A stretch of DNA of 64,000 nt, taken from assembly GCF_032925565.1 (NCBI RefSeq), contig NZ_CP136708.1:2046001-2110000 (forward strand), in the 5' to 3' direction. Origin of the DNA: Alteromonas sp. CI.11.F.A3. GTDB lineage: Bacteria > Pseudomonadota > Gammaproteobacteria > Enterobacterales > Alteromonadaceae. This document shows positions 13,496-24,590 of the stretch, in pieces. A program made the translations under genes and the position numbers. Every line of letters begins with the position of its first letter. Position 1 is the first letter of the stretch. Under the pieces are notes generated by a model. It was not told the origin of the DNA. It searched no databases and saw only the letters and a list, made by a program, of their open reading frames with translations.

Positions 13496-14343
13496 TAACG
13501 TAAGGCTGAAGGTGGGAACTTGTCCATGTCATCGTAGTCGAGGTTTTCACCCGCCATACCCCATATGAACGCATAGCTTCCTGTACCTACGCCACAGTGA
13601 ATGGACCAGGGTGGGGAAATAATGGCTTCTTCATTTGCCACGAACAAATGACGTGTTTCATTGGGTTCACCCATAAAGTGGCACACACGATTTTCTTCAT
13701 TCATATCAAAATAGAAATATACCTCGTTCCTTCTATCGTGCTGATGCGCCGGCATTGTATTCCAAACACTGCCATTGTGAAGGCGTGTTAGCCCCATTTG
13801 TAATTGGCATGTGTCTACAACGGTATTAATGAGTAATTGCTTAATATCTCGCTCATTAGAGGTTTCTTGGCTGCCTAAATGCAGCACGTTGGCATCGTCC
13901 TTACCTACTTTTTTACAGGGGTAGGCATGGTGAGCAGGCGCTGAATTCATGTAATATTTAGCGGGGTTATGCGCATCGTCAGACGCGAAAGAAATCTGCT
14001 CATTTCCCTTACCAATGTACAAGGCTTCTTCGGGAGCAAGGTGGTACTCAGTACCATTAACAGTGACTGTGCCTGCACCACCAATGTTGATGATGCCAAC
14101 TTCACGGCGTGCAGTGAAGTAAGGCATTTTTAACTGATCTTCAATAGTATCAAGGGTTAGTACATTGGTGGTTGGTACTGCGCTTCCCAACATGAATCGT
14201 TCATAATGGGTGTAAATCCAAACCACTTCGCCCTTCGACATGAGAGAGGAGGTTAGAAAAGCATCTCGTAGTTCTTCGGTGTTATAAGCGTTAGCTTCTT
14301 TTTTGCCAATGGCATAACGAACATCAATATCTGGATTCATCAT
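13495..14343 (-). CDS. kduI: 5-keto-4-deoxyuronate isomerase
   Basis: This 282-residue cupin-like isomerase converts 4-deoxy-L-threo-5-hexosulose uronate (DKI), released from unsaturated galacturonides, to 2,5-diketo-3-deoxygluconate (DKII). The zinc ligands of the family are all present: His200 and His202 in PAHQHDRRNE, Glu207, and His249 in WSIHCGVG. It is followed directly by the TRAP genes and preceded by kduD (12-base gap). Its presence shows the organism handles lyase-generated unsaturated uronates. Confidence 0.95.
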   Translation of the reverse strand: MMNPDIDVRYAIGKKEANAYNTEELRDAFLTSSLMSKGEVVWIYTHYERFMLGSAVPTTNVLTLDTIEDQLKMPYFTARREVGIINIGGAGTVTVNGTEYHLAPEEALYIGKGNEQISFASDDAHNPAKYYMNSAPAHHAYPCKKVGKDDANVLHLGSQETSNERDIKQLLINTVVDTCQLQMGLTRLHNGSVWNTMPAHQHDRRNEVYFYFDMNEENRVCHFMGEPNETRHLFVANEEAIISPPWSIHCGVGTGSYAFIWGMAGENLDYDDMDKFPPSALR

Positions 14344-14355
14344 CTTGTCCTTAAT

Positions 14356-15114
14356 TTATCTTGCGAGAAAACCGCCATCCACCGCGAGGGTGTGGCCGCT
14401 TACGTAATTGCTTGCTGAACTTGCTAGAAAAACAGTTGCCCCAGATAGATCGTCAACTTCACCCCATCTCCCAGCGGGAATTCGAGAAAGAATTTCTGCG
14501 CTGCGTTTAGCGTCATCTTGTAGGGCTTGGGTGTTATCGGTTTTGATATAGCCCGGCGCAATAGCATTAACTTGAATGTTCGAAGCTCCCCATTCATTGG
14601 CGAGCGCTTTGGTTAAGCCCGCGATAGCGTGCTTGCTCGCCGTATAGGCCGGAACCGTTACACCACCACTAAAGCTCAGCATGGAAGCAATATTAATAAT
14701 TTTGCCGCCACCATGAGAAATCATATGTTTTCCAATGGCTTGACTTAGTAAAAATGCAGCGTCAAGGTTCACTTTCATCACTTGTTGCCAAGCATCTAAA
14801 GGAAACTCTGTAGCAGGAGCTCGAAATATAGTGCCGCCATTATTGACCAATATATCGACTCGTTTGCCATGTTTGATGGCTGATTTCGCTAAATTCCCTA
14901 CTGCGTCTAGGTCGCTTAAATCAGCACTGATCGCCTGTGCACTACCACCTATAGCTTCTATTTTGTGAAGCGTGTTTTCACATCCACCTTCTTGTGAACT
15001 CGAGCATATAACGTGAGCGCCAGCACCGGCTAAGGATAAGGCCAGTGCCTGACCAATTCCCCGGCTTGCTCCGGTAACGAGGGCGGTTTTCCCTTCTAAA
15101 TTAAAGTTCACCAT
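14356..15114 (-). CDS. kduD: 2-deoxy-D-gluconate 3-dehydrogenase / DKII reductase
   Basis: This short-chain dehydrogenase of about 252 residues reduces 2,5-diketo-3-deoxygluconate to 2-keto-3-deoxygluconate. It has the nucleotide-binding TGASRGIGQA, the NNGGTIFRAPA segment, the catalytic Ser in INIASMLSFSGG and the YTASKHA motif, plus the C-terminal GHTLAVDGGFLAR. I chose the ATG at 15114 because the GAGAGG ribosome site is eight bases from it and only two bases from the earlier ATG at 15120. It is the first gene of kduD-kduI-dctPQM and sits behind an operator-controlled divergent promoter. Confidence 0.92.
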   Translation of the reverse strand: MVNFNLEGKTALVTGASRGIGQALALSLAGAGAHVICSSSQEGGCENTLHKIEAIGGSAQAISADLSDLDAVGNLAKSAIKHGKRVDILVNNGGTIFRAPATEFPLDAWQQVMKVNLDAAFLLSQAIGKHMISHGGGKIINIASMLSFSGGVTVPAYTASKHAIAGLTKALANEWGASNIQVNAIAPGYIKTDNTQALQDDAKRSAEILSRIPAGRWGEVDDLSGATVFLASSASNYVSGHTLAVDGGFLAR

Positions 15115-15193
15115 ATTCATTTCCTCTCATTTTCAGAAAACGTGTTTTCACTCTAACTAAATTTACACATTAAGTTAACAATTTATAAAATAA

Positions 15194-15222
15194 TTGCCAC
15201 CGGTGGCATTTGTCAATATATT
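15194..15222 (+). promoter_or_regulatory. Divergent kduD / DUF4861 promoter region with shared operator
   Basis: The perfect palindrome TGCCACCGGTGGCA (15195-15208) overlaps the -35 of a plus-strand promoter (TTGCCA 15194-15199, 17-base spacer, TATATT 15217-15222). On the minus strand, TTGACA (15216-15211) with an 18-base spacer and TATTTT puts the same palindrome in the spacer of the kduD promoter. One bound repressor would silence both directions. Confidence 0.78.
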
Positions 15223-15267
15223 GTTTGATAAATAATGCATTGTTAATCAGTGATTGGAGATGAAAAT

Positions 15268-16461
15268 ATGAGATTTATTATAGGTTTAGTGCTAATTTTG
15301 CCAATAATATTAACGGCGTGTTCTGAAGGCGAAAATAATAATATACCCAGTGTGATGGTTAAAAACCCAACAGAAGGTGGGTTTGTCACTCAAGAGGTTT
15401 CAATACCATTGGAACAAAAATATCGTGGTTGGTTATTAAAAGAGGTTGCATCGGAATGGCGAGAGAACCCAAATGGTGAGGCCACTTTGTACGCTTACAT
15501 CGAGATGAAACCCGGTGCAGAAAAAAAACTCTCTTTAGTTCAAACCAAAGAGTCGGTAACCGACACCGCCCACGCTGAGCTATCAGTACGCTCAGGGGGG
15601 CAATGGGAAGGCGCGGCTTATACTGCAGGTGGTTTTTCATTTCAGCCTGTAGAATCTTTTACAGCACCTTCACAGCTTACTGACCACTCTTACTTTTTAA
15701 AGTATGAAGGACCCGGTTGGGAAAATGACAAGATAGGCTATCGACTGTACCTAGACTGGCGAAATGCTATCGATGTTTTTGCTAAAACGTCGGATGAAGT
15801 GATATTGCCACAAGTAGGCAACGATGGTTATGACGCTTATCATAAACTTGCTGATTGGGGCGGTGATGCGTTGAAAGTAGGGAAGTCACTTGGGCTGGGC
15901 GCACTAGGAAGACAAGTCGAAGAAGGGGTTCTGCACTTTCAATATGTTGACGATACCCGATGGGCATTAACTGAGAATACCCATTTAACTGCAGCCTTCA
16001 ATGTTAGCTACAGTAATTGGCGTACACGGGAAGACTCAAATGACGGGGTTGATGTGGAAACCCGCTATAAGATTAATACCGGAGATGCATCAACACGTAT
16101 AACGGTTAAAACGTCATCTCCTACATCGAATATAGTTACAGGGTTAGTAGCACATGACGGAATGACGAAAATCGCATTTGAAGAAGGCAAATGGGGCGTT
16201 ATTGCTACATGGGGGGAGCAGAGTGTGTTAAGTGACAGTGACTTACTTGGCCTAGCTGTGTTTTATCAACTAGATGAGGTTAGTGGTGTAGCTAAAGGTG
16301 AGTTCGATCATTTGATTACTTTTAAACCCGTTACCTCGTTCGAGTATGAAATTATGGCGTACTGGCCTGCAAGAGATAGAGCAGAAAACCCAAAGGCTAG
16401 CTTCGAAACCTTATTGCTTCAAAAGGTTCGGGCGTTAAACCACGGTATACAAGTAATGTAA
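15268..16461 (+). CDS. DUF4861-family lipoprotein
   Basis: This 397-residue lipoprotein has the signal peptide MRFIIGLVLILPIILTAC and a lipobox cysteine at residue 18. The body matches DUF4861 as I recall it: YFLKYEGPGWENDKIGYRLYLD (partial), DWRNAIDVFAKT, YHKLADWGGDALKVGKSLGLG, and a C-terminal YWPARDRAENP. DUF4861 proteins are common in loci for pectin, alginate or ulvan use, but I know of no settled function. It shares its operator with kduD, so it should be induced with unsaturated-uronate catabolism. I start at ATG 15268, which has a GGAGA site eight bases upstream. A GTG at 15250 is in frame but has no site. Confidence 0.8.
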   Translation: MRFIIGLVLILPIILTACSEGENNNIPSVMVKNPTEGGFVTQEVSIPLEQKYRGWLLKEVASEWRENPNGEATLYAYIEMKPGAEKKLSLVQTKESVTDTAHAELSVRSGGQWEGAAYTAGGFSFQPVESFTAPSQLTDHSYFLKYEGPGWENDKIGYRLYLDWRNAIDVFAKTSDEVILPQVGNDGYDAYHKLADWGGDALKVGKSLGLGALGRQVEEGVLHFQYVDDTRWALTENTHLTAAFNVSYSNWRTREDSNDGVDVETRYKINTGDASTRITVKTSSPTSNIVTGLVAHDGMTKIAFEEGKWGVIATWGEQSVLSDSDLLGLAVFYQLDEVSGVAKGEFDHLITFKPVTSFEYEIMAYWPARDRAENPKASFETLLLQKVRALNHGIQVM

Positions 16462-16466
16462 ATTGC

Positions 16467-16495
16467 AATTGCTGGCGGTTTAAACAATCGCCAGC
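16467..16495 (+). terminator. Hairpin after the DUF4861 gene
   Basis: GCTGGCG (16471-16477) pairs with CGCCAGC (16489-16495), extended by flanking AATT, just after the stop codon. No T-run follows, so efficiency is uncertain. A second stem (TAATGCC 16546-16552 with GGCATTA 16564-16570) followed by TTAGTTTT may act as a backup between the two convergent genes. Confidence 0.45.
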
Positions 16496-16580
16496 AAATT
16501 GAACGTTATGCGGTGTTTGCTGTAAAAGGGTATTCTCATACCGAGTAATGCCTATTTTGAGATGGCATTATTAGTTTTGC

Positions 16581-17168
16581 CTACAACGCAGGCAAAATTT
16601 CAAATTGAATAGGTTTATAGCGAAAGTTATTCGATTCGCCCGCAGAGCATGCGGTAAGGCCTACAATCATATCCATTTTTGCTTCAAAAATAGTGTAGTC
16701 ACCAGCTTTACTTGTAGGCGGTAACACGGCAATTTTTCCTTCGGGGCTCACATCCACGTTCATAAAGGTATTGAATGTTGTGCCAATGTGATGTGCAGGA
16801 ATATCGAACTCAGCAAAAGCGGCCACTAGGTTGCCATGGCATCCAGGTACGGGAGTTTCACTAGGGTAGAAGTGTTTGAAGGTATCCACACTGCAAGGGG
16901 TTAAAAGAAAATCGTGTTCTTCCACCGTATCTTCAATTATATCAAACATCACCTGACTCTCATTGGAATAGAGCTTACAGCCAGCTGCAAAATGGGTACT
17001 TTCATTATAATCTAGCGAACGGCCTGACGACATGAACTCATTTTTATCGTGGGCATTAAAAGCATATAAATCGGCAACTTGTTCCCCTTCAGGATCAATA
17101 ACTTTAAGTCTTTCACCTTTTTTAATGGTGAATGCTGTGCCGCTTCTTGGTTGAATGGTTTGTCGCAT
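16581..17168 (-). CDS. DUF1989 / urea-carboxylase-associated family protein
   Basis: This 195-residue protein matches the DUF1989 family, whose best-known members accompany guanidine/urea carboxylases. Typical segments are VIDPEGEQVADLYAFNAHD, the LLTPCS region (Cys92), the Cys110-His111 pair in VPGCHGNLVAAF, TFNTFMNVDVSPEGKI and LTACSAGESN (Cys174). The Cys/His set suggests a bound metal. I start at ATG 17168, where GAGG lies five bases upstream. An earlier in-frame ATG at 17240 would overlap the upstream gene. It is the last gene of a three-gene operon with a glycosyltransferase-like gene and a YqcI/YcgG gene, not with a carboxylase. The reaction is unknown. Confidence 0.82.
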   Translation of the reverse strand: MRQTIQPRSGTAFTIKKGERLKVIDPEGEQVADLYAFNAHDKNEFMSSGRSLDYNESTHFAAGCKLYSNESQVMFDIIEDTVEEHDFLLTPCSVDTFKHFYPSETPVPGCHGNLVAAFAEFDIPAHHIGTTFNTFMNVDVSPEGKIAVLPPTSKAGDYTIFEAKMDMIVGLTACSAGESNNFRYKPIQFEILPAL

Positions 17169-17206
17169 TGCTGCCTCGTTATTTTCTTTATTTGAATTTG
17201 TGTAAA

Positions 17207-17878
17207 TTAGTTTTGACTTGCGTGGAAAGGACATTGCCAACGCTTGGGTTGCTGCTTTCCGCTGTATTGATAAGCTTCTGACTGCTCACCGTGATTTTGC
17301 AATAAGGTATTTTTTGACCCACAGAAGGCTTCGTCTTGCTGACGAATGTGGTCTCTTAAATCTTCAAACTTGCCTTGCTCACGAAGTAATTCGAATTGTT
17401 CGTGAAGATTAAACACCAGTGCGGGGCGTTCGAAGCGTCTGCTTTTTCGCTTCGCACCTGGGTGGAGTCCAATGATAAAAAACGCTTTACCACCCAAGCT
17501 AAAACTAAAGTTAGGGCTATGCGGATTTTCGTCTACTTGGTTATCCCAGTCATGCATACAGGTGTCGATATCATGAAGTTGCTGAAGCTTGCGCCACAGT
17601 AATTTATCAAAAACAACCTCGCTCAAAATTTCCGGTTGTTCAAAAGTTAGTACCAGCGAGGAATACATGTCTTTTTCTAGCTCAAAACGATGAATGAAGT
17701 CGTAGATGTCCGTCAAGATGTCGGTGTCATTCATGTCGCATCGAAAATTATCGTACTGTTTTACCGTGATTTTACCTTTGTTCAAAGCAGTTTTAGCCCC
17801 CACGCAGGGGTACTCAGCTTGATCAATAAATGCAGCAACCTTGTGTTCTAAATCAGGTTTTAAAATAGACATACTCAC
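17207..17878 (-). CDS. YqcI/YcgG-family protein (GntA-like putative heme N-oxygenase)
   Basis: This 223-residue protein has the family pattern throughout: YPCVGAKTA near the N-terminus (Cys25), FSLGGKAFFIIGLHPGAKRKSRRF with His139-Pro140, ALVFNLHEQFELLR with His159, and a C-terminal YSGKQQPKRWQCPF. YqcI/YcgG proteins include GntA of guanitoxin biosynthesis, described as a heme-dependent N-hydroxylase. As I recall, the arginine N-hydroxylase DcsA of D-cycloserine biosynthesis is related. The function here is therefore inferred as N-oxygenation of an amine or guanidino group, not shown. It sits 25 bases after the glycosyltransferase-like gene and 38 bases before the DUF1989 gene, so the three probably form one transcript. 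Confidence 0.82.
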   Translation of the reverse strand: MSMSILKPDLEHKVAAFIDQAEYPCVGAKTALNKGKITVKQYDNFRCDMNDTDILTDIYDFIHRFELEKDMYSSLVLTFEQPEILSEVVFDKLLWRKLQQLHDIDTCMHDWDNQVDENPHSPNFSFSLGGKAFFIIGLHPGAKRKSRRFERPALVFNLHEQFELLREQGKFEDLRDHIRQQDEAFCGSKNTLLQNHGEQSEAYQYSGKQQPKRWQCPFHASQN

Positions 17879-17903
17879 TCCTTGATTAGTCTTCCCACGA
17901 GTT

Positions 17904-18806
17904 TTAAGCAGATTGCTTAATCATCGCTGTATCGTGTTCTTGCGATGAATTATCGTTTTCAAAGGCCGGTTTTTCGCGCTTAGGCAATTGCAGAACATGA
18001 ATGCCAGCGGTTTCAAAATCTTCATTAATGTAACCGGCTTCTGCATATGCATTTAGCACATCGATACAAGGGTTAACGCCCCATTTCGCGTGATAACGCT
18101 CGGCGTTTCTGACAAAATCTAGAAGGTGATTAATAGGGCAACGGTAATTAGGTCGCTCTGGAGCAAAGGTCTGCAATTCGATTTGATTTAAAGAAAAACC
18201 CAGTGAACGACAATTGGTAAAAAAGTCTTCGTCGTTTAGTCCGAAGCCGTCGTAACCTTCATCGAAACCGCCGGTTTTCTTAAAATCTGTCTTGCTAATA
18301 AAAAACACTGTAGAACAAATGCTATCGTCACTAAACTTTCCATGATCATCTTCCTGTTGTCTTGACGGAATTTCGTTATTGTCTTCGTCTGGTAATTCTT
18401 GGCTTTTAATGTGGCATAAAGTGTCGTGGGGAAAAGTCCATTGTGACTCTGGAACGAATGTCACTTTGGTAAATACCACTGAGCCTGGACACCACGCGTT
18501 CATCCCCTTGGCGATGAAATTTTTATCCACGATGGCATCAACATTTATGTAAGCTAAAAGATTACTCTTGGCTTCTTGTAAGCCTCGGTTGCGTGCTCTA
18601 GCAATGGGTAACGCGCCGCTAGCCACAAACTTATGCACGATGTTAAATTTCTCACTCTTCGCTAGTGAAAGCGTTGAAGGAGAACACATCCAAACAATGA
18701 CAAGTTCATCGGGTAGTGGGTTACACGACTCAAGCTGTTCTATGAGTCTGCAGAGTTTTTCTGTACGACTTTTTACTATCGTGACAACACTGACGGGTGA
18801 ATGCAT
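17904..18806 (-). CDS. Family-2 glycosyltransferase-like protein with altered DxD
   Basis: This 300-residue GT-A-fold protein has an N-terminal VSVVTIVKSRTEKLCRLIEQL, ARARNRGLQEAKSNLLAYIN, and the C-terminal Glyco_transf_7C-like GGFDEGYDGFGLNDEDFF (179-196). Where a DxD motif is expected the sequence reads N88-V89-D90, so the first metal-binding acid is missing. There is no signal peptide or membrane anchor, so it should be cytosolic. It begins the operon with a strong AGGAGG ribosome site. No other cell-wall or glycan gene is nearby. It may transfer a sugar to a small molecule, or it may be a GT fold used for another reaction alongside the N-oxygenase-like gene. Confidence 0.78.
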   Translation of the reverse strand: MHSPVSVVTIVKSRTEKLCRLIEQLESCNPLPDELVIVWMCSPSTLSLAKSEKFNIVHKFVASGALPIARARNRGLQEAKSNLLAYINVDAIVDKNFIAKGMNAWCPGSVVFTKVTFVPESQWTFPHDTLCHIKSQELPDEDNNEIPSRQQEDDHGKFSDDSICSTVFFISKTDFKKTGGFDEGYDGFGLNDEDFFTNCRSLGFSLNQIELQTFAPERPNYRCPINHLLDFVRNAERYHAKWGVNPCIDVLNAYAEAGYINEDFETAGIHVLQLPKREKPAFENDNSSQEHDTAMIKQSA

Positions 18807-18922
18807 GTAAACCTCCTAATTTCCCTTTGGTGAGTGATTGATAACTGAACTTCTGTCATCGCTATCAAACGTCGCACTAACTGTCTTATCTGTAATGCTT
18901 ACTTGCAGGTTAACTAGCAATA

Positions 18923-18940
18923 ATTAGACCTTAGTCTAAT
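18923..18940. promoter_or_regulatory. Inverted repeat, possible operator of the GT/YqcI/DUF1989 operon
   Basis: ATTAGAC-CTTA-GTCTAAT is an 18-bp sequence with perfect 7-bp arms, 117 bases upstream of the glycosyltransferase-like start. Its size and spacing resemble operators of dimeric regulators such as TetR-type proteins. No such regulator is encoded in the window. The remainder of 18807-19094 shows nothing gene-like. Confidence 0.45.
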
Positions 18941-19094
18941 ATGTTGAAAAGTTTGGAGATTATTTCTTTTGGCGGAAGGCGGTAGCGCTTAGGCTTGCAA
19001 AGAATTCACTCAGTGTGAATCTATTTCATAGTTTTAAAATAGGGCCAATACCCCATTTTAGAAAAGGTTTTCTGTTTACTGGGAGGACTCCTAC

Positions 19095-19487
19095 TCACTG
19101 GTGAAGAGTGTTAGTCGCATTAACATCACTGGCTTTAGCAGTAACTGGTTGCGGCGTACTTACCTGATTTATTTTAGCTTCTATCCCTATTTCATCTGGT
19201 AAGGTTTGTGAATATTCGATGGGTTCATTTCGAACACATAAGGTCTTTAAATTGAAAACTTGGCAGCTGCCTTTATAACGCTGGGTATCGGCTACAAGGT
19301 AATGACATGCTTCGCCCTTCGTTTTTGTTTTGCAGGCTTCAAATGCTTCGTTGTGAATATGACCGCTGTGAGCCAAAACTGTCGTCGAGCATGTCATCGC
19401 TAGTACCGTTACCAATGAAAGTAGAGGTAAACGTTCGGGTGACTTTTCAAATAATATCTTGAGTGATTTGGCACATATAGACATCAT
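19095..19487 (-). CDS. Small exported four-cysteine protein
   Basis: This 130-residue protein has an N-terminal hydrophobic export segment (about residues 21-39) and a compact core with Cys52, Cys61, Cys75 and Cys84 in EACKTKTKGEAC...GSC...LC. Residues 47-90 align without gaps to residues 32-75 of the protein encoded at 22882-23118, on the other side of the two-component system. Function is unknown. Two disulfides are plausible in the periplasm. It is translationally coupled to the upstream YHYH gene by an ATGA overlap. The C-terminal tail of about 40 residues is low in structure. Confidence 0.75.
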   Translation of the reverse strand: MMSICAKSLKILFEKSPERLPLLSLVTVLAMTCSTTVLAHSGHIHNEAFEACKTKTKGEACHYLVADTQRYKGSCQVFNLKTLCVRNEPIEYSQTLPDEIGIEAKINQVSTPQPVTAKASDVNATNTLHQ

Positions 19488-20506
19488 TCATTTACCTCTA
19501 TACTGCCTTGAGCACCTTGGTAGCAGCCGATAAACATATTTTCTGCCGCACTTGCTGCATGATAGTGATAACCTCTTGTATCGTCCTCATGGCCTCTACA
19601 TTCATCAAGATCGTAGTCTTCCTCTCCATTGGCATTCAACATGCCGTAGATACCGTAGCCATCAAGTGCATAGCCCATTAGGTTGGCATGCTCATCAATA
19701 CTGGTTACTACTTCGCTACACCCTAATGACGCGTGATAATGATAGCCTTCAGCGGGGTTCACGTGGCCACCACAATCGTCGAATGCTGCAATGGTATTTG
19801 CCGCCAGTATTTGGGACACAGGAGCAGGGCCTGCTATCACTACGCCATTGAGTGAAACGCCCAAGTCAGCACCAATAGAGTCAGGGTTTGATAAAGGCAC
19901 TGGGGTAACTGGAATAAGAATAGTTTGTTGCATACCGCCGTCGTAATAACTAATTGAACACTGAACGCAGTGATTTTGATATTCTGCTGCTACATTTGGG
20001 CGGGCTGCAGCTTCACACGCCACTTGTGTATCGGTCACAAAAATATCGCCAGTATCTTCATCGTATAATTCCCAGTCATCGCCATAAAGGGTTTTAACGT
20101 CAACAAAGAATTGCCCTTCCAGCTGATATACGTCGCCACTTCCGTCAAACCATATACCGCCTTTGGTGGCATCGTCTGCAATATTAGAAGGGCAAAAGGG
20201 GCCAATTTCCGTATTGGCAGGGGCTCCATTGATAATGACTTTGTAGCATTCGGTAGTGGTACCATCCGTAAGCGTACAAGCTGTGGTAGTAATAGTTTCG
20301 GCCAGGCCGGCGGCTAGGAAATAGTCTGGGTTGGGGCCAATAACGACATTGTCGGCGTCGCTATCACCATCGCTATCGCCATCTGAATCTGAGCCAGTGG
20401 AAGTATCGCTTGCTGTTGTTGAAGTGTTATTGGAATTGTCGCTATCAGAGCAGGCGGATGTGCCTAGCAACGTAAGTACAAGCAGTGCGTAAAATGACGT
20501 CTTCAT
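19484..20506 (-). CDS. YHYH-domain lipoprotein
   Basis: This 340-residue lipoprotein has a lipobox LGTSAC (Cys19) and then an acidic Ser/Asp/Gly linker (about residues 20-55). The exported domain carries two YHYH motifs, at 255-258 (GYHYHASLGC) and 313-316 (GYHYHAAS). The histidine-rich motif pair names the YHYH domain family, which suggests metal binding, but I know of no proven function. Several cysteines (77, 87, 105, 164, 180, 183, 245, 263, 303, 328) may form disulfides. It lies 135 bases downstream of the response-regulator gene on the same strand and may be part of the regulon of that system. Confidence 0.85.
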   Translation of the reverse strand: MKTSFYALLVLTLLGTSACSDSDNSNNTSTTASDTSTGSDSDGDSDGDSDADNVVIGPNPDYFLAAGLAETITTTACTLTDGTTTECYKVIINGAPANTEIGPFCPSNIADDATKGGIWFDGSGDVYQLEGQFFVDVKTLYGDDWELYDEDTGDIFVTDTQVACEAAARPNVAAEYQNHCVQCSISYYDGGMQQTILIPVTPVPLSNPDSIGADLGVSLNGVVIAGPAPVSQILAANTIAAFDDCGGHVNPAEGYHYHASLGCSEVVTSIDEHANLMGYALDGYGIYGMLNANGEEDYDLDECRGHEDDTRGYHYHAASAAENMFIGCYQGAQGSIEVNE

Positions 20507-20641
20507 AAAATGCCCCAGAACTGTCTTTTAGGTTTGAATATTTATTGGAATACCAAATCAAAGACTATCGCTAAAAAGTGCAGTTTAAGTGCAGGTTCAA
20601 AGAGGCTTTAATGAAGATGTATAGCAGGCTACTGTACTTTT

Positions 20642-21331
20642 TTACTGTACTTTGTAGCCTATGCCGTATACCGCATGAATAGGACTGATGTGTTCTGCCG
20701 TAGCTAACTTGTGACGTAGGTTTTTCATATGGCTGTCGATAGTGCGGTTACTGACCACTCTGCCATCTTCGTAGCCAAGTTCCATAAGTTGGTCTCGCGA
20801 GTAAACGACACCGGGTTTCGTCATCATCGTTTTCAACAACCGAAATTCTACCGGCGTAAGCTCAATAATGTTGCCATCCACAGCGCATTCAAAGCGAGAC
20901 ATATCCAACTCGATGTGGCGAAAAGTGAGTTTTTCTGATGAAGACTCCGTTTTGGTTTGTTGGGTACTACGCCGCAATACAGCTTGTATTCGTGCTACCA
21001 CTTCACGCGCTGAAAAAGGTTTACATACATAGTCATCGGCACCCGCTTCAAGACCAATAAGTCGGTCTATTTCATCGACTCGGGCGGTCAACATGATAAT
21101 GGGCACCATGGAAAAACGACGTAACGATTTGCAAATGGTGAGTCCGTCCACACCGGGCAACATCCTATCAAGAATAATGGCCGCGGGAGCTTCTTTTTTT
21201 ACCGTATCAACCACATGGGTGCCTTCGTTCAGTACGGTAGATGTGAACCCTTCTAAGGCTAGAAACTCAACTAAAATTTGCGCAATTTTATCTTCATCTT
21301 CAACAATGAGTACATGTTTGTGCGATGTCAT
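20642..21331 (-). CDS. OmpR-family response regulator (BaeR-like)
   Basis: This 229-residue regulator has a receiver domain, with acidic pocket EDED at 11-14, phospho-acceptor Asp55 in IILDRMLPGVDG, and the conserved Lys in DDYVCKPFS. A winged-helix DNA-binding domain follows (LTPVEFRLLKTMMTKPGVVYSRDQL, RTIDSHMKNLRHKL in parts, YGIGYKVQ). It shares one base with the stop of the kinase gene upstream (TAATG), so both proteins are made from one message. BaeR-like is a similarity call and orthology to E. coli BaeR is not claimed. Confidence 0.93.
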   Translation of the reverse strand: MTSHKHVLIVEDEDKIAQILVEFLALEGFTSTVLNEGTHVVDTVKKEAPAAIILDRMLPGVDGLTICKSLRRFSMVPIIMLTARVDEIDRLIGLEAGADDYVCKPFSAREVVARIQAVLRRSTQQTKTESSSEKLTFRHIELDMSRFECAVDGNIIELTPVEFRLLKTMMTKPGVVYSRDQLMELGYEDGRVVSNRTIDSHMKNLRHKLATAEHISPIHAVYGIGYKVQ

Positions 21332-22740
21332 TAGTTATTATCCGTAGTGAAATGTTTGGGCAGCTCTGCTGTAATTTTAACGCCGCCGAGTGACGAAACT
21401 GACGCGCTAATTTTGCCACCATGGGCCTCTATAATTTGTTTACTAATGGATAGACCAAGGCCGGCACCTTGCGTTCGACGCCTACGTGAGGCATCTTCTC
21501 TAAATAAAGGTTCAAATAATGCCGCTGCATTTTCTTTCGCAATGCTGGGCGCTGAGTCTTGTACAATAATAACAATAAATGAAGGTTGTTCTGAAACCAA
21601 TAACTCTACAGTACCGGGCGCATCGGTGTACTCACATGCGTTAACTAACAAGTTAAGCATAAGTTGCTTCAAGCGCTGGTGATCGGCATTAATAGTGATG
21701 TTGGGCGGGCAGGAAAACGTGAAGGTAAGCCCTTTTGTATCAAAAATATGCGCAAGGCTTTCGCTTTGTTGCGCTATTACTTGGCTCACATCCACTGACG
21801 AGAAATGATAAGAAAGCCCGCCAATATCTGACAGTGATAATTGATATAAATCTTCAACCAATAAAGACAAGCGCGAGACCTCTTGGTCAAACGAAGCCAG
21901 TTGTTTTTGATCAAGTGGTCGAATTCCTGCTTTTATCAGTTCAATTTCGCCAGACAGTATGGTGAGGGGCGTACGAAGTTCATGAGAAATATCAGCTAGC
22001 CATTGGCTTTTAGTATTTTTATGCGCTTCAAGGGTATTTCCCAATGTGTTGATGTGGCGCATTAGCTCGCCAAACTCATCAGGACGGTTTTCTGGCAAGT
22101 TGGTTTTATATTGATGTGCGGTAAGGCCTTTAACGCTTTGTAATATAGCCTTAAAAGGGCTTAGCATGCGGGGCGCAACGCCTAATGCCAGTACAAGCGA
22201 GGCGATAAGTGATACTAGCCCTATAAAAATAATGGCGTGCAGCTGTTGTGCAGAAAAAGCACGAGCCACATCTGAGTCAGGTGTTTGGGGTGGGTAACTG
22301 GTAAGCCAACCTATGAGCTCTCCGTTAACTTCAAGTTGTAAACTGACTTCATTTCGTTCGTTTTCGTCAGCATAGGAATCTTGCCCCGATATGATTTCCC
22401 CAGAGGCATTAGTCAGTAATGTAGGTGGGCCGGCAGATATATCGTCAATCTGATGCCTAGGGGGAGGGAATCCACCGGGTCGAGGGCGCATGCCGGGGCG
22501 GCGATGAGGCATGCCAGTAGGTGCAACACGCTCTATTTCGATATTTTCCCAACTATTATTATTGCTGCGGTACTCTGCAATAAGCACGCGACGTAAACTC
22601 ATCAGGCGCTCTCGTTCCTGATTTTGAATAAATTCATTAAAGCCTTGCTCGAAGCTCCATCGTGCAAGTGCTAGTGAAAGCGACAAAGACACACAGGTAA
22701 AGCCAACAAGAATAACAAGTAATTTATGGGATAGTTTCAT
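21331..22740 (-). CDS. Sensor histidine kinase with Pro/Arg-rich periplasmic loop (BaeS-like)
   Basis: This 469-residue inner-membrane kinase has TM1 at about 7-27, a periplasmic sensor region at about 28-167, and TM2 at about 168-189. HAMP follows (190-243), then HisKA with His253 in DISHELRTPLT, and HATPase with LLVNACEYTD (N-box) and GAGLGLSISKQIIEAHGG (G-box). The sensor loop has an unusual stretch rich in proline, arginine and glycine with two histidines (about residues 73-96), beginning APTGMPHRRPGMRP. The gene is divergent from a small secreted protein (22882-23118) and cotranscribed with its regulator. The signal is unknown. A cationic flexible loop could sense a metal or an anionic ligand. 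Confidence 0.92.
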   Translation of the reverse strand: MKLSHKLLVILVGFTCVSLSLSLALARWSFEQGFNEFIQNQERERLMSLRRVLIAEYRSNNNSWENIEIERVAPTGMPHRRPGMRPRPGGFPPPRHQIDDISAGPPTLLTNASGEIISGQDSYADENERNEVSLQLEVNGELIGWLTSYPPQTPDSDVARAFSAQQLHAIIFIGLVSLIASLVLALGVAPRMLSPFKAILQSVKGLTAHQYKTNLPENRPDEFGELMRHINTLGNTLEAHKNTKSQWLADISHELRTPLTILSGEIELIKAGIRPLDQKQLASFDQEVSRLSLLVEDLYQLSLSDIGGLSYHFSSVDVSQVIAQQSESLAHIFDTKGLTFTFSCPPNITINADHQRLKQLMLNLLVNACEYTDAPGTVELLVSEQPSFIVIIVQDSAPSIAKENAAALFEPLFREDASRRRRTQGAGLGLSISKQIIEAHGGKISASVSSLGGVKITAELPKHFTTDNN

Positions 22741-22881
22741 TGTGCTGAGTATATCTATGCTTGTACGTTGCTAACAATTGTTTCTGCTTTTATTCCGTTA
22801 CTTCTACATGTTCTCTGCACTGAATCTGCACATTTAACGCGTATGCTGAATGTGAGTTAGTTAATCTTCTTAGGAAAAGTC

Positions 22882-23118
22882 ATGAAATTGTTAAAGCTTG
22901 TATTCGTTGCCACGCTTCTCACAGGAAGTTTAAGCGCATTTGCGCAACAGGGTCGTCCGAATGGTCCGCCACCTGAAGCTATTGAAGCATGTGAAGATAA
23001 ATCTGAGGGTGATACAGTCTCTTTTGAAACCCGTCGCGGTGACAGCGTGGAAGGTACTTGCGAATTGGTTGAGGAACAACTGGTAGCGGTTCCTGAAAAC
23101 CATCGTCAACAACGTTAA
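22882..23118 (+). CDS. Small exported protein, two-cysteine relative of the 19095 protein
   Basis: This 78-residue protein has a signal peptide (cleavage near AFA|QQ, residues 20-22), then a Gly/Pro-rich start and the core EAIEACEDKSEGD with Cys37 and Cys60. It aligns gaplessly to the four-cysteine protein at 19095-19487. The positions of that protein's other two cysteines are Val46 and Ala69 here, so one disulfide at most can form. The TTAGGAAAAG ribosome site supports the ATG. It is divergent from the histidine kinase, as targets of BaeSR-like systems often are. Function unknown. Confidence 0.8.
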   Translation: MKLLKLVFVATLLTGSLSAFAQQGRPNGPPPEAIEACEDKSEGDTVSFETRRGDSVEGTCELVEEQLVAVPENHRQQR

Positions 23119-23332
23119 TTTCCCCAGTATATTATTTCTTTACCCATCTAAAAACGTAAGCTGGCAGTGTAAATATGCACCGTCAGTTTTTGCTTTGTTA
23201 TTACAGAACGCTCTAACAAAAAAATACCGAATATGTCATACTAGTCAATCATTAAGCTAAGCATTAATAGCGCGCCCTTTTGTTAGGTTTTTCACAGCGC
23301 ATTAGCTTAAAATATCTTATTGGAGGCCTAGT

Positions 23333-23923
23333 ATGCAATACAGTGACGAGCGCCTTAACGAGCTAGTAAACGCCAGAAATTCAGAGGTTCCAGACGTATT
23401 TAGCATTCAGTGTGATGGCATTGAACTTTATGTTCACGTTAGCCCTTACGTATGGATCCGCCCTTGGGAAGGACGTGACCACACGGCTTTTTCAGTGGGA
23501 CTAGCGCCAGGATGCCCAAATGCCTGTAGGTTGTTCGGTAAAATTGATGTGCCTTATTTGCATATTTCGCTAGAGGCCCTCAAGCAGGCCGCGGTTAAGC
23601 GTGTATCTGAAGCGGGAATATCGTTTTTAACCAAACGAGGAGCAGGGGTGAAAAGCTTTGCTATTCACCCTAGAGGCGGTTTGACATCAGTAGACGAAAG
23701 CCGTGCTTACCACGACGCTTACGTAAATGGATACCGCTATGTAGTGCATGTTTATCAGTTACGAAGTGGCGGGCTTGGAAAGCGCTTTGCTGAATGGTTT
23801 TTTTTCGGAGAGCCAGAGCCGTCTGTGATCTTAACAAAATTACGTCGTCAGCAAGATAATCTTGCAGACTCAATGCATTTTGAAATATGTCAATTGTCGA
23901 CGGAACTTCCTAAGTCAGCGTAA
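23333..23923 (+). CDS. Unrecognised soluble protein
   Basis: This 196-residue protein has no signal peptide or clear membrane segment. I recognise no family. Visible features are an aromatic-rich segment (YVHVSPYVWIRPWEGRDH), a CPNAC pair of cysteines at about residues 61-65, and a basic central stretch. TTGGAGG lies nine bases upstream of the ATG, so translation is well supported. It is followed after 58 bases by another orphan gene on the same strand. Confidence 0.7.
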   Translation: MQYSDERLNELVNARNSEVPDVFSIQCDGIELYVHVSPYVWIRPWEGRDHTAFSVGLAPGCPNACRLFGKIDVPYLHISLEALKQAAVKRVSEAGISFLTKRGAGVKSFAIHPRGGLTSVDESRAYHDAYVNGYRYVVHVYQLRSGGLGKRFAEWFFFGEPEPSVILTKLRRQQDNLADSMHFEICQLSTELPKSA

Positions 23924-23981
23924 ATCTTAATTAGTATAATAAACTATGGTTCACTTGTGAGCGTATTCAAATCTTTATAAA

Positions 23982-24590
23982 GTGAGTAAAAGTCAAGTGG
24001 AGAGAGTTGTGAACTCTGAATCGGTAGTTGAACTTCGCAACTATGAAAAAAGCCAGTTAAAACAAGTTAGTGTTATTTCTGGTATTTCACCCAATGCCAT
24101 GCGAAGGGTATTTGGTGGATGGATATTATTTGCTGCATTAGTAGGAATAATTGTTTCTGTTGCACCGGATTTAGACAGTCAGTTTATTGGTTTAACCTTG
24201 TTTGTTTTAGTGGCCTTCACCGTTGTAATGTTTTGGCAGAGCCGAATATCTGAAGGGTGGCCAGCCATTATTTGCGATGACGATTACATAGGTGTGGTAC
24301 GAGATCCTGTTCTGCGTGAATATGTGTGCGTCAAAAAAAGTATTATCACCGATGCTCAACCTTCACTGATTAAACCGAATAAGAAAGCGGTTGAAATGAG
24401 TTTAGACACCAGCGCACTTAGCGAAACCGACACCGCCATTTTGAAACAAGCGGTGTGGCCTCGAGAAGACAAACTTATTGGTCTTGCACACTTTAAACGT
24501 CGTGAAGAAGCATGCGAAAGCGTAATGTGGTGTGTTAATCACAATACGAAAGCGGTTAGGTCAGTTCCAGCACATCGTGTGCCTACCTAG
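23982..24590 (+). CDS. Unrecognised protein with two membrane segments
   Basis: This protein of up to 202 residues has two hydrophobic helices (about residues 47-65 and 68-86) between a short N-terminal tail and a soluble C-terminal domain of about 115 residues. I do not recognise the family. The start is uncertain: GTG at 23982 opens the frame, but GTG at 24009 lies right after a purine-rich GGAGAGAG. The rest of the frame is uninterrupted and ends at a strong terminator. It may be cotranscribed with the gene at 23333. Confidence 0.65.
   Translation: MSKSQVERVVNSESVVELRNYEKSQLKQVSVISGISPNAMRRVFGGWILFAALVGIIVSVAPDLDSQFIGLTLFVLVAFTVVMFWQSRISEGWPAIICDDDYIGVVRDPVLREYVCVKKSIITDAQPSLIKPNKKAVEMSLDTSALSETDTAILKQAVWPREDKLIGLAHFKRREEACESVMWCVNHNTKAVRSVPAHRVPT

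Follow-up and report, generated by a model that had tools for sequence, protein, structure and literature searches.

The window, that is the whole stretch of 64,000 nucleotides analysed here (Alteromonas sp. CI.11.F.A3, contig NZ_CP136708.1, positions 2,046,001 to 2,110,000), carries three ORFs on its minus strand between positions 16581 and 18806. ORF calling confirmed that they are co-directional. The upstream gene (17904..18806) codes for a GT2-like glycosyltransferase of 300 amino acids, whose Pfam matches were of the weaker GT2 type (PF10111, E 5.1e-09; PF02709, 7.1e-08; PF00535, 1.7e-06). The middle gene, located at 17207..17878 if translation starts at a GTG codon or at 17207..17872 if it starts at an ATG, encodes a YqcI/YcgG protein matching the full-length PF08892 domain (residues 16-219, E 1.2e-54). 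The third gene (16581..17168, ATG start, 195 amino acids) encodes a DUF1989 protein (PF09347, E 7.1e-50). The gap between the glycosyltransferase and YqcI genes is 25 bases (31 bases from the ATG start), and 38 bases separate the YqcI stop codon from the ATG of the DUF1989 gene, which confirmed the tight spacing described in a sequence-only reading of this DNA. The single strong ribosome site proposed in the same reading was not quite correct: Shine-Dalgarno-like sequences (AGGAGG, AAGGAG and GAGG) were found, one before each gene. Profile searches detected a single PF08892 gene and a single PF09347 gene in the genome. In the close relative Alteromonas sp. MMG017 YqcI is 100% identical to that of the window. 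The neighbours between 10.7 and 24.6 kb of the window code for a TRAP transporter, KduI/KduD-like proteins (recognized by eye), DUF4861 and YHYH proteins and two-component proteins; no gnt cluster genes were found among them.

The YqcI protein (residue numbers count from the GTG codon at 17878) was compared with AglA of the argolaphos pathway (PDB 9ub3/9ubb), a heme N-hydroxylase of the YqcI/YcgG family. The fold search recovered the sandwich fold of AglA, and Cys25 of YqcI, which is invariant, aligned with the AglA heme ligand Cys44, the axial heme cysteine. Family, fold and heme ligand support the prediction, made already in the sequence-only reading, that YqcI is a heme N-oxygenase of the GntA/AglA type. 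Two AglA residues differ, Arg179 being replaced by His159 and Gln177 by Asn157; neither position is conserved, therefore the substrate of YqcI may not be arginine. The AglA heme-propionate residues Lys196 and Arg200 fall outside the aligned stretch. Likeness to GntA of guanitoxin biosynthesis was indicated by the score against the NCBI equivalog model NF041366 (251.5 bits, cut-off 145), but this name and model appear too broad here. Nitric oxide synthase oxygenase entries in the fold search were at noise level; in several of them the chain ranges would place Cys25 within about one residue of the heme cysteine of these enzymes, judging by range starts only.

In the DUF1989 protein the fold search and the alignment identified the family fold and a three-cysteine metal site (Cys92, Cys110 and Cys174), features shared with the carboxyguanidine deiminase CgdAB and with trimethylamine N-oxide (TMAO) demethylase. 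The three zinc cysteines were kept in all 88 partner DUF1989 sequences aligned. In a quick tree 87 partner proteins were all located on one side of a branch with a support of 97, whereas carboxyguanidine-deiminase-like pairs and TMAO-demethylase domains occupied the other side; by this phylogeny the partner of YqcI is a dedicated DUF1989 clade. Unlike CgdAB and TMAO demethylase, it is encoded by a single gene for a stand-alone subunit and has no Gcv_T domain. Scores against the CgdAB models TIGR03424 and TIGR03425 (102.6 and 72.5 bits) were below the cut-offs (284.7 and 205.95), and the two side-by-side DUF1989 genes characteristic of CgdAB were not found in the window genome.

To see how far the two genes travel together, proteins were searched in 98 genomes, of which 58-59, the window's genome included, belong to the window's genus. 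YqcI was present in 30 genomes (31 genes), every one in this genus. When the 30 loci other than that of the window were fetched, 29 had a same-strand DUF1989 gene downstream of YqcI, which makes 30 of 31 with the window. The sole exception (L059) has YqcI near a contig end, and the same genome contains a complete second pair (L057). Named genomes were then scanned with the pattern [LI]VFN[LAS]HxQF and the best 80 of at least 548 confirmed loci were kept, a set conditioned on the motif because the pattern selected it. Among these 80, a same-strand DUF1989 gene lay within 1.5 kb of YqcI in 67, downstream in 56 and upstream in 11, the latter all Methylobacteriaceae; in L119 an MgtC gene is inserted between YqcI and the downstream DUF1989. 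The 13 loci without DUF1989 comprised the L059 copy, one contig end and 11 Methylobacteriaceae loci, for which absence refers to the fetched stretch. In five of these 11 the strain has a pair elsewhere among the matches listed.

Similar results were obtained with family models. In 200 Pseudomonadota genomes, including that of the window, PF08892 was detected in eight (nine genes) and DUF1989 in 49; eight of the nine PF08892 genes, representing all eight genomes, had DUF1989 directly downstream by coordinates. Among 289 Alphaproteobacteria (four pair genomes are common to the two samples) PF08892 was found in 12 genomes: eight of the pair type, three of another type and one weak match. All eight pair-type genomes had DUF1989, one of them with a broken YqcI frame. 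The other type (five genes in three genomes) scored 58-64 bits with the pair profile, and none of the five genes was accompanied by DUF1989 within the fetched stretches. Two loci with YqcI domains (L212 and L213, in G532 and G439) have them within open frames of 6502 and 8199 amino acids, which suggests fusion to a giant synthetase. Three of the 274 Gammaproteobacteria matched; two of them, one being the window's genome, had the pair, and the third match was below the cut-off. Of 21 matching plasmid records eight regions were fetched; four (Deinococcus, Chryseobacterium, Skermanella and Comamonas) contained the pair and four (two Streptomyces, Rahnella and Pantoea) did not. The pair-like motif FNSHxQF was present in YqcI of the two Streptomyces plasmids and the Rahnella plasmid without an adjoining DUF1989, so a DUF1989 partner cannot be predicted from the motif by itself. 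Control rows showed both families in B. subtilis, where ycgG and ycgI are, as we assume, neighbouring genes. In a quick YqcI tree, in which only 146 residues of AglA were included and its branch is very long, the pair did not form one clade, and the Methylobacteriaceae loci without DUF1989 nested among pair loci. No third conserved gene was seen in the gene maps (ORF calling was crude in G+C-rich loci), among the 40 neighbour proteins run through Pfam or in the annotated plasmid regions. YqcI and DUF1989 are a two-gene unit kept together across very different bacteria.

The sequence-only reading had included all three genes of the window in one compact pathway and had suggested mapping the conservation of the trio. 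The coupling of YqcI to DUF1989 stood up in this mapping, but the glycosyltransferase did not hold its place: outside Alteromonas the trio was rarely together, and at the non-Alteromonadaceae pair loci examined no relative of the window's glycosyltransferase was found beside the pair. A three-gene pathway, in which the glycosyltransferase would glycosylate the N-oxygenated product, is favoured by the tight co-directional spacing in the window and by the 30 other Alteromonas-group loci, 17 of which have a glycosyltransferase (at least 39% identity) immediately before the pair. A five-gene block of glycosyltransferase type (c19-c18-c18-c17-c2) near the pair in L048, L051, L053, L058 and L061, preceding it in three of them and following it in the other two, points the same way. 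In the remaining 13 of the 30 loci, however, the pair has no adjoining glycosyltransferase. Moreover, some match to the glycosyltransferase was detected in 53 of 59 genus genomes, and eight (G001, G007, G008, G019, G036, G037, G039 and G043) have a close one (48-63%) but no YqcI. In G025 the glycosyltransferase and the pair are on separate contigs.

The glycosyltransferase loci of these eight genomes and of G025 were mapped. In six of the nine the flanks were as in a pair-bearing counterpart and only the two pair genes were missing. At these empty sites the glycosyltransferase is followed by genes e4-e5 (L182, L184, L185 and L186), by the genes that come after the pair in the window (L183) or by gene e10 (L187). 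L188 and L190 have other downstream genes in common, and those of L189 are different. At the DNA level the match at both edges of the gap was good in L182, L184, L185 and L186 and partial in the more divergent L183 and L187. L182 has retained approximately the last 30 codons of DUF1989, therefore a deletion there removed both genes; the pair can be lost as a unit, in at least this one case. The evidence from L184 is weaker, a short stretch that resembles the first part of YqcI. With glycosyltransferases lacking the pair, pairs lacking the glycosyltransferase and empty sites, the glycosyltransferase was rejected as a pathway partner and judged to be a bystander outside the module, and we regard the three-gene pathway as very improbable. 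The two-component genes, the YHYH gene and a small-protein gene upstream of the glycosyltransferase in the window (19095-22740, minus strand) recur with it, even where the pair is absent (L182).

Upstream regions were searched for the consensus GAAC-N16,17-C/GGTT of the general stress sigma factor EcfG, as published (PMC4814048). Of 56 alphaproteobacterial loci, 41 had the consensus in the 300 bases preceding the YqcI match. In the controls it occurred in 61 of 1597 regions upstream of the remaining long ORFs of these loci, in 121 of 5600 windows placed at random and, on the opposite strand, in 4 of 56. The positive loci belonged to Methylobacteriaceae (31/36), Methylopilaceae (2/2), Rhizobiaceae (2/2), Sphingomonadales (1/5), Parvibaculum (1/1), unplaced MAGs (2/3), Skermanella (1/1) and family f53 (1/3); Caulobacteraceae, Parvularcula and f62, with one locus each, had none. 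Since the loci are related, with at least two cases of duplication (the quick YqcI tree shows L134 and L170, and likewise L091 and L177, to be identical), the 41 are not independent events. Nor was the test blind: a motif with an extra leading G had been tried first on the same 56 loci, and occurred in 33 of them when the 400 bases preceding the pair's first gene were searched (87 of 3360 windows) and in 44 of 56 before YqcI. Among Methylobacteriaceae the two boxes are constant, but their spacing and how far they lie from the gene differ. Of four pair genomes fetched later three, all of one further family, have the EcfG motif, which is missing from the fourth, the broken copy. Outside Alphaproteobacteria, the group from which EcfG has been described, the leading-G motif was no more frequent than in the controls, with one hit in 30 Alteromonas loci and one in 40 other loci, which is what such a sigma factor would lead one to expect. 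Upstream regions of the Hymenobacter loci, or of the Alteromonas loci, showed no convincing motif in common when inspected by eye. The promoter sequences strongly suggest that EcfG switches on the pair in many Alphaproteobacteria. A stress role in Alteromonas would be carried over from these relatives by orthology only.

We give roughly even chances to the pair being a two-enzyme pathway deployed under stress, in which a common guanidino metabolite is N-hydroxylated and the product is then hydrolysed. YqcI would bind heme through Cys25, receive electrons from a ferredoxin or reductase encoded elsewhere, and, as predicted from family, fold and residues, hydroxylate a guanidino nitrogen, most likely that of free arginine or another small guanidine. 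By analogy with carboxyguanidine deiminase, the putative metal-dependent hydrolase DUF1989 would then use its three-cysteine site to break a C-N bond in the N-hydroxyguanidine. Because the neighbours of the pair vary by lineage, the substrate should be generally available. Arginine, which is our guess, is the leading candidate since ChmN acts on free arginine, according to the accessible part of PMC10849742. A YqcI-family hydroxylase followed by a hydrolase is also found in the D-cycloserine pathway (DcsA and the hydroxyarginase DcsB), in that case within an antibiotic cluster. DcsB is arginase-like. We know of no enzyme activity for any member of the pair.

A relation to graminine biosynthesis, raised in the sequence-only reading, did not survive the comparison of partners. 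A pathway to a graminine-like diazeniumdiolate or another metal ligand would fit the membership of YqcI in the superfamily of GrbD/ChmN, which the available portions of the literature place commonly in graminine clusters. There too a YqcI-family heme oxygenase has a dedicated partner, and TonB receptors lie near the pair in L046 and L052. That partner (GrbE/ChmM), however, is described in the same portions as SznF-like (ChmM, 469 amino acids), whereas here it is DUF1989, and the YqcI genes of the other type, two of them in very long frames, have no DUF1989. PF14518, which we take to be the family of the SznF-type domain, matched a single protein of the window genome, a frame of 227 aa at a distance of 0.2 Mb. 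Membership in a graminine pathway was rejected, and we give this alternative hardly any weight. Another alternative, in which the pair bypasses the carboxylase route and degrades or detoxifies free or substituted guanidine for use as a nitrogen source, would agree with the inclusion of carboxyguanidine deiminase in DUF1989 (as stated in the accessible text of its source) and with the TIGR02712 search for urea/guanidine carboxylase, which gave 14 partial matches and none over the cut-off in the window genome. We nevertheless consider it unlikely, since a stress promoter is not what nitrogen assimilation would need and no guanidine riboswitch was detected in window positions 14000-24000 or in seven other pair loci, where the sole match was a tmRNA; control by such a riboswitch was rejected. 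A similarly small chance is given to DUF1989 being no second enzyme and serving YqcI as a chaperone, a sensor or an inactive subunit. Inactive partners are known in this family, CgdAB being cited as a case in the part of the literature at hand, but in the DUF1989 gene pairs one subunit type has mostly lost at least one zinc cysteine, while the partners of YqcI have kept them without exception.

The two-step pathway of N-hydroxylation and hydrolysis could have a more specific, quite doubtful form, a two-enzyme system, induced by stress, that would be the counterpart of bacterial nitric oxide synthase in several phyla. The thiolate-heme enzyme would make N-hydroxyarginine, and DUF1989 would convert it to citrulline and hydroxylamine or a nitroxyl/NO equivalent (or to ornithine and hydroxyurea), the small nitrogen oxide acting as a signal or growth brake.

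According to the accessible parts of their sources, characterized YqcI/YcgG enzymes come from antibiotic, toxin and metallophore clusters, and the tabulated genes of the argolaphos cluster (AlpA-AlpP) include no DUF1989 gene, unlike the pair. In the samples studied here YqcI usually formed a stand-alone pair with its dedicated DUF1989; such pairs occurred in Pseudomonadota, in Bacteroidota and on a plasmid of Deinococcus. The stress promoter and the stand-alone pair point to an unrecognized piece of stress or primary metabolism, and suggest that the gene name GntA is spreading too widely. The pair looks like a two-step pathway made from known families and apparently undescribed as a unit: no account of it or of its stress promoter was found in a literature search that lacked most subscription journals (background from the accessible parts of PMC12866846, PMC12560246, PMC11271267, PMC8319176, PMC11085572, PMC2922099, PMC11410670 and PMC8976061).

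Some neighbours of individual loci, seen without a control set, were stress-like: Pfam identified a catalase in L058 and L096 and clustering did so in L046 and L059, LigD was noted in L119 and L146, and a YetF/DUF421 cluster covered seven Alteromonas-group loci, one of them checked by Pfam. The NCBI name 'guanitoxin biosynthesis GntA' was encountered on plasmid genes of several phyla that have very unlike neighbours, with and without DUF1989. On the Pantoea vagans plasmid (L145) a divergent YqcI without DUF1989 adjoins genes for a LysE-family exporter, a TonB siderophore receptor and an ABC transporter. On the conjugative plasmid of Rahnella sikkimica (L147) YqcI is part of a run with SDR, 2Fe-2S, LysE, MOSC and tRNA-ligase-like genes, a setting that differs from that of the pair and is possibly biosynthetic.
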